A DNA stretch of 49,468 nucleotides. Origin: Paracoccaceae bacterium (GTDB lineage Bacteria; Pseudomonadota; Alphaproteobacteria; Rhodobacterales; Rhodobacteraceae). Positions within the stretch are counted from its first letter, which is position 1. Each line of letters opens with the position of its first letter. The notes beneath the pieces are model-generated. The model saw only the letters and a program-made list of their open reading frames with translations, searched no databases and was not told the origin of the DNA. The translations under genes and the position numbers were made by a program. This document shows, piece by piece, positions 3,121 through 6,784 of this stretch. The DNA lies in NCBI GenBank assembly GCA_019634215.1, contig JAHQVS010000214.1, positions 1-49,468 of the forward strand, given 5' to 3'.

Positions 3121-3311
3121 AAGATGATTCTATTGTACTCGTTGACGCATGTGCTACTGCGGATGAGGGCCGCCAAGCCAAACGCTGGCGCTTGGGAGCG
3201 CAATGTCACTGAGATAAAACGCGAATTGGGGATTTTGGCGGAGAATTGAAGTCTAGATATGTTTCGTGCGCCCTGATGTACCGAGCATTTTCTAGTGATT
3301 GGAGACAGGCC

Positions 3312-4928
3312 ATGCGGAAGGCCCTGTTGCGAAGTGTCGGCGTGCGTCTGTCGGTTGCGGCGATAGTCGGCGTAGCCGCGGTAAACCTCACCTCTTGCGG
3401 CAAAACCGCGACTGTATTTGAGGACTTACAGCTCCTCGATCCCGCTCAAAGGCAGCCAACACCTGAACCGGCGTCGAGCACGGCGCCGCCCGAGCCTTCG
3501 CCAACGGAACCGCCTGAAATCGCGGCCTTGGAGCCATCTGATGCTGCAGATTCAGAGGCGGATGGGTTTGAGAACATTTCTCTTTTCGACTTTCTCAAAG
3601 AAAAACTCGCCCTTGATCTAGCGCCCGGTGGGGAGCTGTCTGCGGCCCCTAACCCAGAACAGCCCGAGGGTTTGAAGAGGGAGCGGGCTGTTTCTGCAGT
3701 GGCGGGGCCGCCTGAAGCTGAAAACTCAGAGGCGGATGTTTTTGAGGAGATTTCGCTTTTCGATTTTTTCAGAGAAAAGCTCGCCCTTGATCCAGCGCCC
3801 ATTGAGGAGCCGTCCGAAACCCTGAGCCCAGAGCCACCCGAGGATGTGAAAGTGGCGGAAGCGGCGGACGCAGCGCAGCCACCAGAGATCTTGAGTGAGG
3901 CGACAGCAGCACCTTCGACGAAGGAGCAGCCAGCTGACGCGGCTGTTGAGCTGCCGGAAGCTTTGAGCCCAGAACAATCCGAGGATTTGGGGGATGAGCG
4001 GGTTGATGTGGTGAGTGTGGAGCAGCCCGATATTGTGAGTGCGGATCTGTCCGAGGCTTCCAGCGCCGAGCTGTCTCAGACGTCAAACGATCCGCGCTCT
4101 GGGGCGGAGCTGCGCACCGCGTCATTAGGGGCGTCGCCGTCTCGCCCGCGCCCTCTTGGAAGGACACAACCGCCTTCGCCTGCTCCAGTACAGGGACAGC
4201 CGGAGCCGATCCAGAATCAGGCGGATCAGGTGCAGATTATTCTGGACGAGCAGCTGCGGTATGACGGTGGCCTGTTCCAGCCAGGGAATTGTGCGGCACC
4301 GACCGAAAACGCGTTTTGGGCGATGATCGGTGGTGAGCGATTCGCTATCCCCATGGATACGATGGCCGGCGTGCGGCCGCTCTCAGCCGACTCCTTCCTC
4401 AGCCGAAATTCCGCTGCGCCCGTCGCTGGCGTCATCGCCAACGATCTGAACTCAGGCTCGGGATGTCCTGGAAACGCTCCCAAAATCTCTCAAGCTTGGC
4501 TGACAGAAGGCTCTCTGGGGGAGCAATCGCTGTTGGGCGTGCGCATTCAGGTCGCGCCGCAGCCCGATCACGCCGAGCGCCTTCAACGCGACGTCACACG
4601 GCTGCAGAGCCATCCCAGCTGCGACGTCAATGGCGACGTACGAAGCTGCCTCAGCCAAGAGCGCTCCTCGCAAGGCGTGAAGCAGCTGTTCTATATCACC
4701 CGCCAGCTTGACTCCGTCGGCGGTGACGACGGCCCGCCGATATTCATCCGCTGCGAGGAGCCAGGCGAATCCGCCTGCGAAATCTATCATCCGCTGTCGT
4801 CGATGGCCCGATTGGTGGCGTTCGTTTCGTTCAACGGGGAATATCTGCCGGCGGAGGGCGCGGAGCTTGCGCCGCTGGTGGCTGAGTTACAGCGGATCGA
4901 GGTTCAGATCATGTCCTGGCGGCGCTAA
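3312..4928 (+). CDS. Putative lipoprotein with acidic Pro/Glu-rich linker and duplicated module
   Basis: A 538-residue protein of unknown function. I start it at ATG 3312, preceded by GGAGACAGG, rather than at the upstream in-frame ATG at 3246, because this places a lipoprotein signal at the N-terminus: RKALLRS, a hydrophobic core, then the lipobox LTSC with Cys29. Residues about 35-310 are rich in Pro, Glu, Ala and Ser and are probably disordered. Within them a module around ISLFDF occurs twice about 58 residues apart. The last roughly 230 residues look globular and carry several cysteines (GNCAAP, GCPGNAP, PSCDVN, RSCLSQ, RCEEP, SACEIY). No known family was recognised. A surface- or periplasm-facing lipoprotein is inferred. 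Confidence 0.7.
   Translation: MRKALLRSVGVRLSVAAIVGVAAVNLTSCGKTATVFEDLQLLDPAQRQPTPEPASSTAPPEPSPTEPPEIAALEPSDAADSEADGFENISLFDFLKEKLALDLAPGGELSAAPNPEQPEGLKRERAVSAVAGPPEAENSEADVFEEISLFDFFREKLALDPAPIEEPSETLSPEPPEDVKVAEAADAAQPPEILSEATAAPSTKEQPADAAVELPEALSPEQSEDLGDERVDVVSVEQPDIVSADLSEASSAELSQTSNDPRSGAELRTASLGASPSRPRPLGRTQPPSPAPVQGQPEPIQNQADQVQIILDEQLRYDGGLFQPGNCAAPTENAFWAMIGGERFAIPMDTMAGVRPLSADSFLSRNSAAPVAGVIANDLNSGSGCPGNAPKISQAWLTEGSLGEQSLLGVRIQVAPQPDHAERLQRDVTRLQSHPSCDVNGDVRSCLSQERSSQGVKQLFYITRQLDSVGGDDGPPIFIRCEEPGESACEIYHPLSSMARLVAFVSFNGEYLPAEGAELAPLVAELQRIEVQIMSWRR
3552..3800 (+). repeat. Two copies of a 25-residue module, 174 bp apart
   Basis: Copies at 3552-3626 and 3726-3800 encode SEAD-G/V-FE-N/E-ISLFDF-L/F-K/R-EKLALD-L/P-AP. 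About 19 of 25 residues are identical, inside otherwise low-complexity sequence. Each copy is predicted to be an amphipathic helix flanked by disorder, as expected of a short binding motif. Confidence 0.7.
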
Positions 4929-4935
4929 CTGCCGC

Positions 4936-5433
4936 TCACCCCATGACATCCTCATCACTCTCGCCGGTGCGGATGCGGGTCACCCCCCGGACAGGTGAGA
5001 CAAAGATCGTTCCGTCGCCGACCTTGCCAGTGCGGGCCTCGGCGATGATAGCGTCCACCACCTCTTGCTCCATCGCGGCGGCGGCGACCACGTCGATGCG
5101 CAGTTTAGGGGTCTCCTTCACATCATATTCCGCGCCGCGATAGATCTCGGTCTTGCCGCGTTGGCGGCCAAATCCGCGCACCTCGGTCACTGTCAGGCCA
5201 GCGATGCCGATCTCTGAGAGAGCGTCGCGCACCGCCTCATAGCGGCTGGGACGAATAATTGCGGTGATTTGTCGCATCGGATGCGCCTCCTCATGCTCCA
5301 TGCCAATCTGAACCAGCCGACGGATCGCCTCCGAACGCGACGGCAGATCCGGTTGAGTTCGACGCCAAGAGTCAACTAACTCATTGAATTGCTTGGATGC
5401 GACCAGTTGGATTCGTTGATCAAGTTTTTCCAT
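4936..5433 (-). CDS. RHH DNA-binding domain fused to PII nitrogen regulator
   Basis: A single 165-codon frame encodes two domains. Residues about 5-48 resemble a ribbon-helix-helix DNA-binding fold: strand RIQLVAS, helix FNELVDSWRRTQ, then LPSRSEAIRRLVQIGM, a motif common in RHH repressors. Residues 53-165 form a full PII protein starting MRQITAIIRP. It has the T-loop GRQRGKTEIYRGAEYDV with Tyr51 (PII numbering) in the uridylylation position, Gln39 and Lys58, and ends with GDGTIFVSPV and RIRTGE. PII trimers bind ATP/ADP and 2-oxoglutarate and report nitrogen status. The usual Lys90 is Thr, and FLPK after the T-loop is ETPK. No amtB or glnA is adjacent. The ATG at 5433 has only a weak ribosome site, while the internal ATG at 5277 has a strong one. 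A 2-oxoglutarate/energy-responsive regulator is inferred. Confidence 0.88.
   Translation of the reverse strand: MEKLDQRIQLVASKQFNELVDSWRRTQPDLPSRSEAIRRLVQIGMEHEEAHPMRQITAIIRPSRYEAVRDALSEIGIAGLTVTEVRGFGRQRGKTEIYRGAEYDVKETPKLRIDVVAAAAMEQEVVDAIIAEARTGKVGDGTIFVSPVRGVTRIRTGESDEDVMG
5278..5291 (-). promoter_or_regulatory. Internal Shine-Dalgarno before the PII-only start
   Basis: On the minus strand AGGAGG (5291-5286) is followed by an 8-nt spacer and ATG (5277-5275), the first codon of the PII domain (MRQITAIIRP). Spacing and sequence are near ideal and better than at the full-length start. The codons involved also encode Glu-Glu-Ala-His-Pro, so coincidence is possible. Use of this site would yield a 113-residue PII without the DNA-binding domain. 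Confidence 0.6.
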
Positions 5434-5514
5434 TCCCGCTCACGCTGCTCCCAACCATGCCGTCTGATCCTGCTCAGAGGGTCTAGCCTGCGCAGGCGAC
5501 CTCTGTCGATGTTT

Positions 5515-5550
5515 GTGCACTTTAGCAAATTTAGCCACTTGCCAAACTTA
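5515..5550. repeat. Tandem imperfect repeat in the RHH-PII/DUF4278 intergenic region
   Basis: Read on the minus strand, units TAAGTTTGGCAAGTGGC (5550-5534) and TAAATTTGCTAAAGTGCAC (5533-5515) lie head to tail and match at most positions allowing a two-base gap. A TATAAT hexamer on the minus strand (5568-5563) lies just upstream, which would place the repeats around the start of the RHH-PII transcript. RHH repressors commonly bind tandem half-sites in this way, so autoregulation by the RHH domain is a reasonable inference. No convincing -35 element was found. Confidence 0.4.
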
Positions 5551-5631
5551 CACACAATACACATTATAAGACTCATCAGAGACACGGCGGCACAGGGATC
5601 ATCGCCCCGCCGCCAGGCTTAGGAGGATGCC

Positions 5632-5859
5632 ATGACTACTTTAGTGTATCGGGGTGTGCGCTACAGCCGCGAAGATCTTGGCTCGGAGACCGCCGGAGAG
5701 GCGACGACCTTGCGCTATCGCGGGTTTGAATATGATCCGCGTGAAGCCTGGTTGGCGGCGCGGCCAATCTTCAGCCGTCCGGCGACACGGGTTTATCGCG
5801 GCGTGAGCGACAGCGACGATGGCCCAGGCGGGAATGCTTTCGCTGCGGTGGCCGTGTGA
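5632..5859 (+). CDS. DUF4278-type small protein with three YRG motifs
   Basis: A 75-residue protein with an excellent ribosome site (AGGAGG, 5 nt before ATG). It contains three repeats of the DUF4278 pattern: LVYRGVRY (residues 4-11), LRYRGFEYDPRE (27-38) and RVYRGVSD (53-60). The middle copy shares Y-R-G-x-E-Y-D with the T-loop of the PII protein encoded divergently 198 bp away. There is no signal peptide or membrane segment, so it should be cytoplasmic. DUF4278 has no settled function; from memory, a cyanobacterial PII-binding small protein (PirA) has been linked to this kind of sequence, which I cannot verify here. A partner or modulator of the neighbouring PII is inferred. Confidence 0.75.
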   Translation: MTTLVYRGVRYSREDLGSETAGEATTLRYRGFEYDPREAWLAARPIFSRPATRVYRGVSDSDDGPGGNAFAAVAV

Positions 5860-5952: not shown

Positions 5953-6019
5953 CATGGGCTCATGCTTGCGTGAACCCATGTAAGACTCTGAAGCTTCAGG
6001 ATTTTTCTTAGTTTTTTTT
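5953..6019 (+). terminator. Hairpins and T-rich tract after the DUF4278 gene
   Basis: CATGGGCTCA (5953-5962) and TGAACCCATG (5971-5980) form a stem with one mismatch and an 8-nt loop. The palindrome CTGAAGCTTCAG (5988-5999) and a T-rich tract (6002-6019) follow. A second small stem (5869-5877 with 5881-5889) lies directly after the stop codon. The end of the T-tract overlaps the last codons of the convergent HNH gene. Confidence 0.55.
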
Positions 6020-6335
6020 ACCGCCGCTTTTTACGCTTGCGGTGATTGCCGACGCTGCGGCTATGGAAATATGGGTCTTTGCCGGCCACCCATTCCAGGA
6101 ACGCGGCCAATTGCGGATGTGCGCGCAGCGCCTCGACAGTGTTGAACCGCCGGGCCAACTCCGCCTCGGTCAATACGCTGTGGATCTCATTGTGGCAGAT
6201 CGAGTGCAGCAGCACTGTCGGCCCGGAGCTGCCGCCTTTCAGCTTGGGAATTAGGTGATGCAGGCTCTGTTTTGCGTCCGGTGGGATCGGCCGGTTGCAC
6301 AGCGGGCAAATCGGCGCGTGGGGCGTGCCGTTCAC
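6018..6335 (-). CDS. Small HNH endonuclease-like protein
   Basis: A 105-residue protein beginning at GTG 6335. Its start overlaps the stop of the upstream membrane-protein gene in the sequence GTGA, implying translational coupling. It has a Cys pair (CPLC near residues 10-13) that may bind zinc, the HHLIPKLKGG segment, and LHSICHNEIHSVLTE, together giving an HNH nuclease pattern (His-His...Asn...His). The C-terminus is very basic (RKRKKRR), suitable for nucleic acid contact. Small standalone HNH proteins of this kind are common in Alphaproteobacteria and their biological role is mostly unknown. Longer upstream starts would run far into the neighbouring gene. Confidence 0.8.
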   Translation of the reverse strand: MNGTPHAPICPLCNRPIPPDAKQSLHHLIPKLKGGSSGPTVLLHSICHNEIHSVLTEAELARRFNTVEALRAHPQLAAFLEWVAGKDPYFHSRSVGNHRKRKKRR

Positions 6336-6784
6336 TGCGCCGCCTGTCGTTGAAAACCGGCGCGCCAGAGCCATCGGGCCAACAGCGCCGCTCCGGCCCC
6401 GACCAACGCCACGGGCGCGACCGACTTCGCCGCCTCCTCGACAATAAGCGAGATCATGCGCGCCAGCCCGGCCTCGACCGACACGCATTCCACGCTCAGC
6501 CCATCACCGACGCAGGCTTCGCCAAAGCCGACGAAAAAACCGATCACCGGGAAGCACAACAGCGCCGTCGCCGCGCCTCTCGCGGCGGTGAGGGTCGCTC
6601 CCCGCCGCCCTGCCAAAGCGCCGCCCACCAAAGCGCCGCCGATCAGTAGTCCGCATCCCAGGAACACAATCAGCAGGGGCGGGAAATGCTTCCATAAAAA
6701 CCACCCGGGCGCCGCCGCCGCCAGCGCCATGACCACCCCGGCGCACAGTCTCGGGGCGAGTTGGGGGCTGTTTTCATGCATCAT
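6332..6784 (-). CDS. Hypothetical four-helix membrane protein
   Basis: A 150-residue protein starting at ATG 6784 (MMHENSPQ). It has four likely membrane spans: LCAGVVMALAAAAPGWFLW, LLIVFLGCGLLIGGALVGGAL, GAATALLCFPVIGFFVGFG and a C-terminal APVALVGAGAALLARWLW. It is coupled to the HNH gene downstream through a 4-bp overlap and is divergent from the metallophosphatase gene, with only 61 bp between starts. I do not recognise the family. The pairing of a membrane protein with an HNH protein is noted without assigning a function. Confidence 0.6.
   Translation of the reverse strand: MMHENSPQLAPRLCAGVVMALAAAAPGWFLWKHFPPLLIVFLGCGLLIGGALVGGALAGRRGATLTAARGAATALLCFPVIGFFVGFGEACVGDGLSVECVSVEAGLARMISLIVEEAAKSVAPVALVGAGAALLARWLWRAGFQRQAAQ

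Follow-up and report, generated by a model that had tools for sequence, protein, structure and literature searches.

A gene joining an RHH-type N-terminus to a PII domain, with a candidate operator and a DUF4278 partner, in Alphaproteobacteria

The locus and its fusion protein

The stretch of DNA analysed here (the window; 49,468 nucleotides of a contig from a Paracoccaceae bacterium) carries on its minus strand a gene of 165 codons (4936..5433), a single unbroken frame that runs from an ATG at 5433 to a stop codon ending at 4936. Its delineation rests on the open frame and on the conservation of full-length relatives. As read from its sequence, the gene is a fusion, with an RHH-type N-terminus (residues 1-52) and a complete PII domain (residues 53-163) in one protein. 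A DUF4278 gene of 75 codons, the presumed target, lies divergently on the plus strand (5632..5859). The region between both genes (5434-5631), which a first-pass annotation of this DNA had proposed for binding assays, contains a conserved candidate operator (5539-5554). Two further genes frame this arrangement. Between the fusion and a UbiD gene, there is a frame of 560 residues (3246-4928, plus strand) that contains repeats rich in proline and glutamate and matches no Pfam family above cut-off; in a related contig (L034), a UbiD-like gene directly follows the fusion. Beyond DUF4278, an HNH-type gene (6018-6488, minus strand; PF01844 just above cut-off) is found in all three loci of the window's family (f1).

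The PII domain (4960..5277, minus strand) was recognised by profile, by solved relatives and by fold. PF00543 spans residues 53-158 (profile positions 1-102) and scores 91.2 bits where the cut-off is 25, a PII protein is the top-scoring solved relative and matches across residues 53-163 (E 2.1e-36), and residues 53-149 of the structural model superimpose on 4co4_A with a Z of 14.4 and an rmsd of 1.9 over 79 aligned residues. When numbered by alignment with solved PII proteins, the T-loop (PII residues 37-55) falls at 5113..5169 on the same strand, with Tyr51 at 5125-5127. The full PII domain with T-loop and Tyr51, as reported by the first-pass annotation, was thus confirmed by PF00543, solved relatives and alignment. 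Among the distinct fusion proteins (n = 24), Gln39, Tyr51, Lys58, Gly87, Gly89, Arg101 and Arg103 are invariant (24/24). Lys90, which we take to be an ATP contact, is kept in 21 of them and replaced by Thr, Thr and Val in three Neomegalonema-type proteins, the window protein having Thr. All these PII residues have roles in ligand binding or modification. At least one further PII was detected in 14 of the 17 fusion genomes checked; in the remaining three, G580 (96% complete), G587 (70%) and G588 (79%), the fusion was the only PII found. A long-branched second PII is common to two Neomegalonema-type genomes, the window's own (L002, on G000:C114) and G016 (L096).

The assignment of the N-terminal domain (5278..5433, minus strand; residues 1-52) to the RHH type draws on weak matches to NikR and phrog_4738, on alignment with stand-alone relatives, on helices in a model and on selection. 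No Pfam model exceeded its cut-off for this part of the window protein: RHH_1 gave 12.3 bits (E 0.17) with a cut-off of 20.5, and the isolated 52 residues matched no Pfam family. The RHH part of NikR aligns weakly and in register (residues 6-51 vs 1-45, E 0.037), and phrog_4738, a phage family named 'transcriptional repressor', matches residues 30-50 (E 0.001). Among 23 aligned relatives of the N-terminus, 16 matched RHH_1 at E up to 0.1, and one stand-alone relative passed its cut-off (23.3 vs 20.5 bits). The RHH motif claimed in the first-pass annotation can be upheld, as far as profiles allow, through these relatives and phrog_4738, while the window protein taken alone stays below the RHH_1 cut-off.

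Structure prediction contributed little to this assignment. Helices are predicted at residues 14-25 and 33-49, and the full-length AlphaFold model (single chain, mean pLDDT 75) has both of them, followed by PII from residue 53, without the expected RHH strand. When modelled alone, the N-terminus formed three helices, with the strand region helical, and fold matches were obtained only at E above 8, none of them credible. The strand may be missing because the ribbon needs two chains; the model is still no evidence for an RHH fold. R7 and Q9 are presumed to sit in the DNA-reading strand that is absent from the model. A sequence profile search with the N-terminus found no solved RHH structures, and a fold search with the full-length model returned PII proteins as the whole of the matches listed.

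The one-frame fusion claimed for 4936-5433 was confirmed, the same joint frame being kept in relatives; chance read-through or a frameshift is ruled out by this conserved frame together with selection on the N-terminal codons. In nine pairs of fusion genes, pN in the RHH codons was 0.026-0.157 vs a pS of 0.415-0.813 (pN/pS about 0.05-0.31), and the non-synonymous proportion was lower in RHH than in PII codons in seven of the nine. By this codon comparison, purifying selection acts on the first 52 codons of the fusion. Because of this selection, translation cannot start only at 5277, which would have refuted the fusion as first described, and initiation at the first ATG (5433) appears well supported. 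An extra internal start at 5277, giving a second, PII-only product, is not excluded.

Distribution and ancestry of the fusion

The N-terminus was present in 36 genomes, which represent three or more alphaproteobacterial families, in 35 of them within long open frames, and PII lay in the same frame in every frame read (three of f1, 16 of family f10, 13 of the 14 of family f49, and contigs L036 and L037). A survey of homologs thus recovered the architecture first described for the window, and the possibility that homologs always lack the N-terminal 50 residues, which would have counted against it, did not materialise.

Among the matches listed for 198 genomes drawn from f1 there were three full fusions: that of the window's own genome, that of G193 (81% identical) and that of G016 (71%), the latter two on Neomegalonema MAG contigs (L034 and L035, respectively). 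Further MAGs with the fusion are L036 ('bacterium RI_213', 68%) and L037 (Hyphomonadaceae, 62%). Family f49 contained it in 14 of 18 genomes, including all six high-quality ones (6/6). In f10, strong matches (E 5e-28 or better) occurred in 17 of 40 genomes, all within one genus of 27 genomes, and four other genomes gave weak matches only (E 1e-6 to 8e-4). In one f10 genome (G966) the frame is just 80 residues long and a further piece is found on a different contig, perhaps as the result of a contig break. Across the class, the N-terminal profile matched in 33 of 385 genomes, and in six of these the frame was fused; both figures are lower bounds, since some first-look candidates were left unscored. 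At the level of the phylum (398 genomes), the only full fusion among the matches listed was that of the window's own genome (295 bits, the next match having 171).

In a tree of 11 representative fusions and 27 ordinary PIIs, a branch with a support of 99/97, recovered in 100% of 200 bootstrap trees, separated all fusions from the ordinary PIIs. One fusion (FUS_L006) was long-branched and of odd composition. Because the tree is unrooted, a single origin is allowed by it and not proven.

A plasmid or phage cassette was also considered and rejected. A tblastn search with the whole protein matched 100 plasmid records, and none of the 25 matches listed began before query residue 15. The two kinds reaching deepest into the N-terminus (Bradyrhizobium H2 and Sinorhizobium H11) are annotated PII genes of 112-113 codons, and because these start near PII residue 1, the apparent extension is non-coding DNA. 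When searched by itself, the N-terminus gave no match among the 50,697 phage records.

The DUF4278 neighbour and the candidate operator

The divergent gene was identified by PF14105 (27.5 bits, cut-off 25.3) and as a conserved neighbour. Its 75 residues match DUF4278 and no other Pfam family at E up to 1, and a second region after this domain, as in IF17, the glutamine synthetase inactivating factor, is lacking. A DUF4278-type gene divergently adjoins the fusion in all 20 fusion genomes of f10 and f1; 16 f10 and three f1 loci were read in detail, and G966 was placed by coordinates. Within f10, DUF4278 was present in 17/17 fusion genomes vs 0/23 others (p 1.1e-11), although this p ignores kinship and related genomes are not independent. 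All 17 f10 partners passed the PF14105 cut-off, those of G193 (21.5 bits) and G016 (23.6) falling below it. Class-wide, DUF4278 was found at E up to 0.01 in eight of 385 genomes, in four above cut-off; three of these eight belong to the sample's six fusion genomes (Fisher p 1.2e-4), and the other five have no fusion. In f49, a weakly scored DUF4278 gene is adjacent to the fusion, on the same strand, in three of 14 fusion genomes, and G542 of this family has a still weaker match (E 0.07) with an internal stop. No DUF4278 was found in the genomes of L036 and L037. The surroundings of the fusion in these two consist of a divergent response-regulator-like gene and, convergently, a small membrane protein and an MscS-like channel (all named by eye).

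In PMC11288750, DUF4278 is taken as the mark of gifB. A glutamine riboswitch beside DUF4278 was looked for and rejected, as no Rfam family reached its gathering score in the window, L034 or L035; in L068, only one tRNA did.

The intergenic regions have TGTGTAAGTTTNNCAA in common. In the window, this candidate operator, which we call box 1, reads TGTGTAAGTTTGGCAA (5539..5554, minus strand); it was delimited by a pattern scan of 26 genomes and an intergenic alignment, without binding data. Its core forms part of a nine-base direct repeat, TGTGTATTG-TGTGTAAG (5547..5563, minus strand), read from the sequence and matched by repeats in other loci. By eye, a sigma-70-like promoter (TTGCCA, 17 bases, CATTAT; 5539..5567, plus strand) was predicted for the DUF4278 gene; in the window box 1 spans its -35 and spacer, and the other 18 loci share this arrangement. 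In many f10 loci, the corresponding promoter, likewise recognised by eye, reads TTGACA-AACTTACACATCTTACT-CATATT, box 1 filling the spacer. For the fusion gene, a possible promoter (TCGACA, 17 bases, CTAGAC; 5481..5509, minus strand) was placed tentatively by eye; it aligns with TTGGACA-type stretches of f10.

The scan, performed with up to one mismatch, comprised 14 of the 17 f10 fusion genomes, the three of f1, seven f10 genomes without fusion, and the genomes of L036 and L037. Box 1 was located between both genes in 17/17 scanned genomes that have both, 15 of them having it exactly and two (G958 and G970) at one mismatch. Outside the locus, exact copies were absent from all 26 genomes, including the seven fusion-free ones of f10. 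Copies with one mismatch occurred elsewhere four times (once in a fusion-free f10 genome) vs nine times for a reversed control pattern, and they look like chance for this reason. A wider regulon was rejected on both counts.

In f10, 12 of the 15 distinct intergenic regions (all but L182, L191 and L192) contain a further box in inverted orientation, TTACACA or ATACACA; it always starts 34 bases after box 1 and adjoins the fusion's own predicted promoter. The three f1 loci have no second box in the intergenic alignment. L036 and L037, where DUF4278 is lacking, have one TGTGTAA each upstream of the fusion, and in f49 neither TGTGTAA nor TTACACA was present in any of the nine upstream regions viewed. 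A different conserved stretch upstream in f49 may, as judged by eye, belong to a divergent tRNA-Gly. In L069, L070 and L072 of this family (genomes of ~1.4 Mb), a divergent tRNA-Gly precedes the fusion and a thioredoxin-like gene follows it, accompanied in L069 and L070 by a LON-N-terminus-like gene (assignments by eye); these three loci lack box 1.

Related N-termini also exist without PII. The N-terminal profile found relatives on 16 IMG/VR contigs (L127-L142), 14 of them proteins of 50-63 residues (L139 has 240 and L142 has 42). Together with phrog_4738, these stand-alone phage-type RHH repressors are 38-60% identical to the window's N-terminus where sequences were aligned; unlike the fusion, they are mostly short and have no PII. 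After exclusion of the near-duplicates L128 and L137, the TTACACA or TGTGTAA box was shared by five of 14 relatives, with 10 boxes within 200 bases upstream, the other nine having none; shuffled sequences yielded a mean of 0.7, and none of 2000 shuffles as many. Boxes were present in 5/5 relatives with R-x-[QH]-x-V as their residues 7-11 vs 0/8 others with a readable strand (p 7.8e-4), though this grouping was chosen after the data had been seen and leaves out L142. The fusions read the same motif at 7-11, with Q. Upstream of the prophage-type gene L127 (the same gene as L043), CTTACACATATAACACAT comes close to the fusion loci. L141, which has Gly at the R-x-[QH]-x-V strand position, has TTACGTAA-like stretches upstream. 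A specificity code, linking the strand residue to the type of upstream box in L127-L142, is possible. The simplest reading of these comparisons is that a phage-type repressor domain was fused to PII along with its operator preference.

Proposed regulatory role and alternative readings

Few signal proteins are as widespread as PII, whose known outputs run via contact with other proteins. Where transcription is concerned, PII is known to act on separate transcription factors or adaptors, as in PII-PipX-NtcA and GlnK-TnrA. The fusion would have in common with these that PII status controls transcription, but sensor and DNA-binding domain are here one polypeptide. With GlnB and GlnK (PF00543) it shares a complete PII domain in which the T-loop, Tyr51 and almost every ligand residue are present, and it adds the N-terminal RHH-type domain, an operator candidate of its own and the DUF4278 partner. 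NikR, whose sensor domain has a ferredoxin-like fold, likewise has an N-terminal RHH followed by a ferredoxin-like sensor, and the N-termini align in register. However, the sensor of the fusion is PII and not a nickel-binding domain: the NikR match was confined to its first 45-49 positions, and its nickel-binding C-terminal domain was not found. The parts are of known kinds, and the combination with operator and partner is new. The earlier remark that no described equivalent was known was borne out in that no description of an RHH-PII fusion was found in open-access titles and abstracts among the matches listed, subscription papers being mostly outside this scope. The RHH passage of PMC7354497 concerns an enzyme.

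The conserved fusion, its branch separation from ordinary PII, the operator candidate and the partner gene are established at the level of sequence. From them we consider it likely that the fusion is a one-component nitrogen-/energy-responsive transcription regulator, composed of a phage-type RHH repressor and PII, which controls DUF4278 and perhaps itself. According to this proposal, the phage-repressor-type RHH domain would bind TGTGTAAG (TTACACA) boxes, and the PII domain would sense 2-oxoglutarate, ATP/ADP and possibly uridylylation at Tyr51. Protein bound at box 1 would block the divergent DUF4278 promoter, because box 1 lies between its predicted -35 and -10. The position of the second box near the fusion's predicted promoter in f10 suggests autoregulation. 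Ligand binding by PII may alter how the RHH domains are spaced or paired and in this way switch repression, so that the ligand state of PII, perhaps with uridylylation, would release or strengthen binding; the direction cannot be read from sequence. The DNA-binding interpretation put forward in the first-pass annotation gains support from the conserved candidate operator and neighbour gene, DNA binding itself being inferred, as are repression, ligand control and the assembly of the protein.

RHH proteins work as dimers and PII proteins as trimers, so the fusion combines parts of two-fold and three-fold symmetry. Both symmetries would be satisfied if three RHH dimers linked a pair of PII trimers, or if the fusion entered mixed trimers together with ordinary PII. 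A more far-reaching version, for which we see the chances as even, holds that the protein is the founding example of a DNA-binding PII: a switch from 2-oxoglutarate/ATP/ADP to repression in one polypeptide, acting at one genome-unique operator as bridged (or mixed) trimers, and forming a closed nitrogen-feedback cassette with DUF4278 after capture of a phage repressor domain. Counting against the proposed one-component regulator are the score of the window protein below the RHH_1 cut-off, the failure of profiles to find a solved RHH structure and of the models to show the strand or a credible RHH fold, the absence of box 1 in the nine f49 upstream regions viewed, the patchy presence of DUF4278 in f49 and its absence beside the fusions of L036 and L037, the loss of Lys90 in the window protein, the three fusion genomes in which no other PII was found, the kinship of the genomes and the lack of any experiment.

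One alternative is that the RHH part serves merely for autoregulation or as a DNA anchor, repressing the gene pair independently of ligand or tethering PII to DNA, while the PII part still works by contact with other proteins. The stand-alone RHH relatives seem to work without a sensor, and the loss of Lys90 in Neomegalonema-type fusions may weaken ATP sensing there. However, apart from Lys90 the ligand and T-loop residues show no variation in 24/24 and the PII codons are also under selection, which argues that sensing has been kept, and we regard this role as unlikely, though not to be dismissed. It is rather improbable that box 1 belongs to another regulator or is merely a strong promoter, with the N-terminus of the fusion serving otherwise, for example in oligomerisation. 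Box 1 does overlap a predicted promoter, which may be conserved for its own sake, and the RHH assignment is weak for the window protein alone; yet conservation extends beyond the hexamers into the spacer, exact box 1 is present in 0/7 scanned fusion-free f10 genomes, and the same box recurs at phage-type loci with related N-termini. That the main product begins at Met53 (5277) as an ordinary PII, the longer form being minor, can hardly be maintained: GAGGAG directly precedes the Met53 codon in the window, with similar stretches in L034-L037, but this purine stretch doubles as codons for Glu residues, and the 52 upstream codons are under purifying selection in the nine pairs and conserved across 36 genomes.

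If the proposed one-component regulator is real, the ligand logic of PII could be read in a simple DNA-binding assay, with one operator and one neighbouring target. It would also suggest how a metabolic sensor can gain its own promoter from a phage-type repressor.

The fusion also provides an entry point to DUF4278, a small domain linked to nitrogen whose function is unclear. Compared with the cyanobacterial nitrogen control by DUF4278/IF17 (gifB), the window's partner has DUF4278 only, and a nitrogen role for this protein is inferred. Beyond DUF4278, four f10 loci (L182, L186, L187 and L188) contain a gene of 473-514 codons which we take to be homospermidine-synthase-like; this neighbour is perhaps a link to polyamine metabolism.
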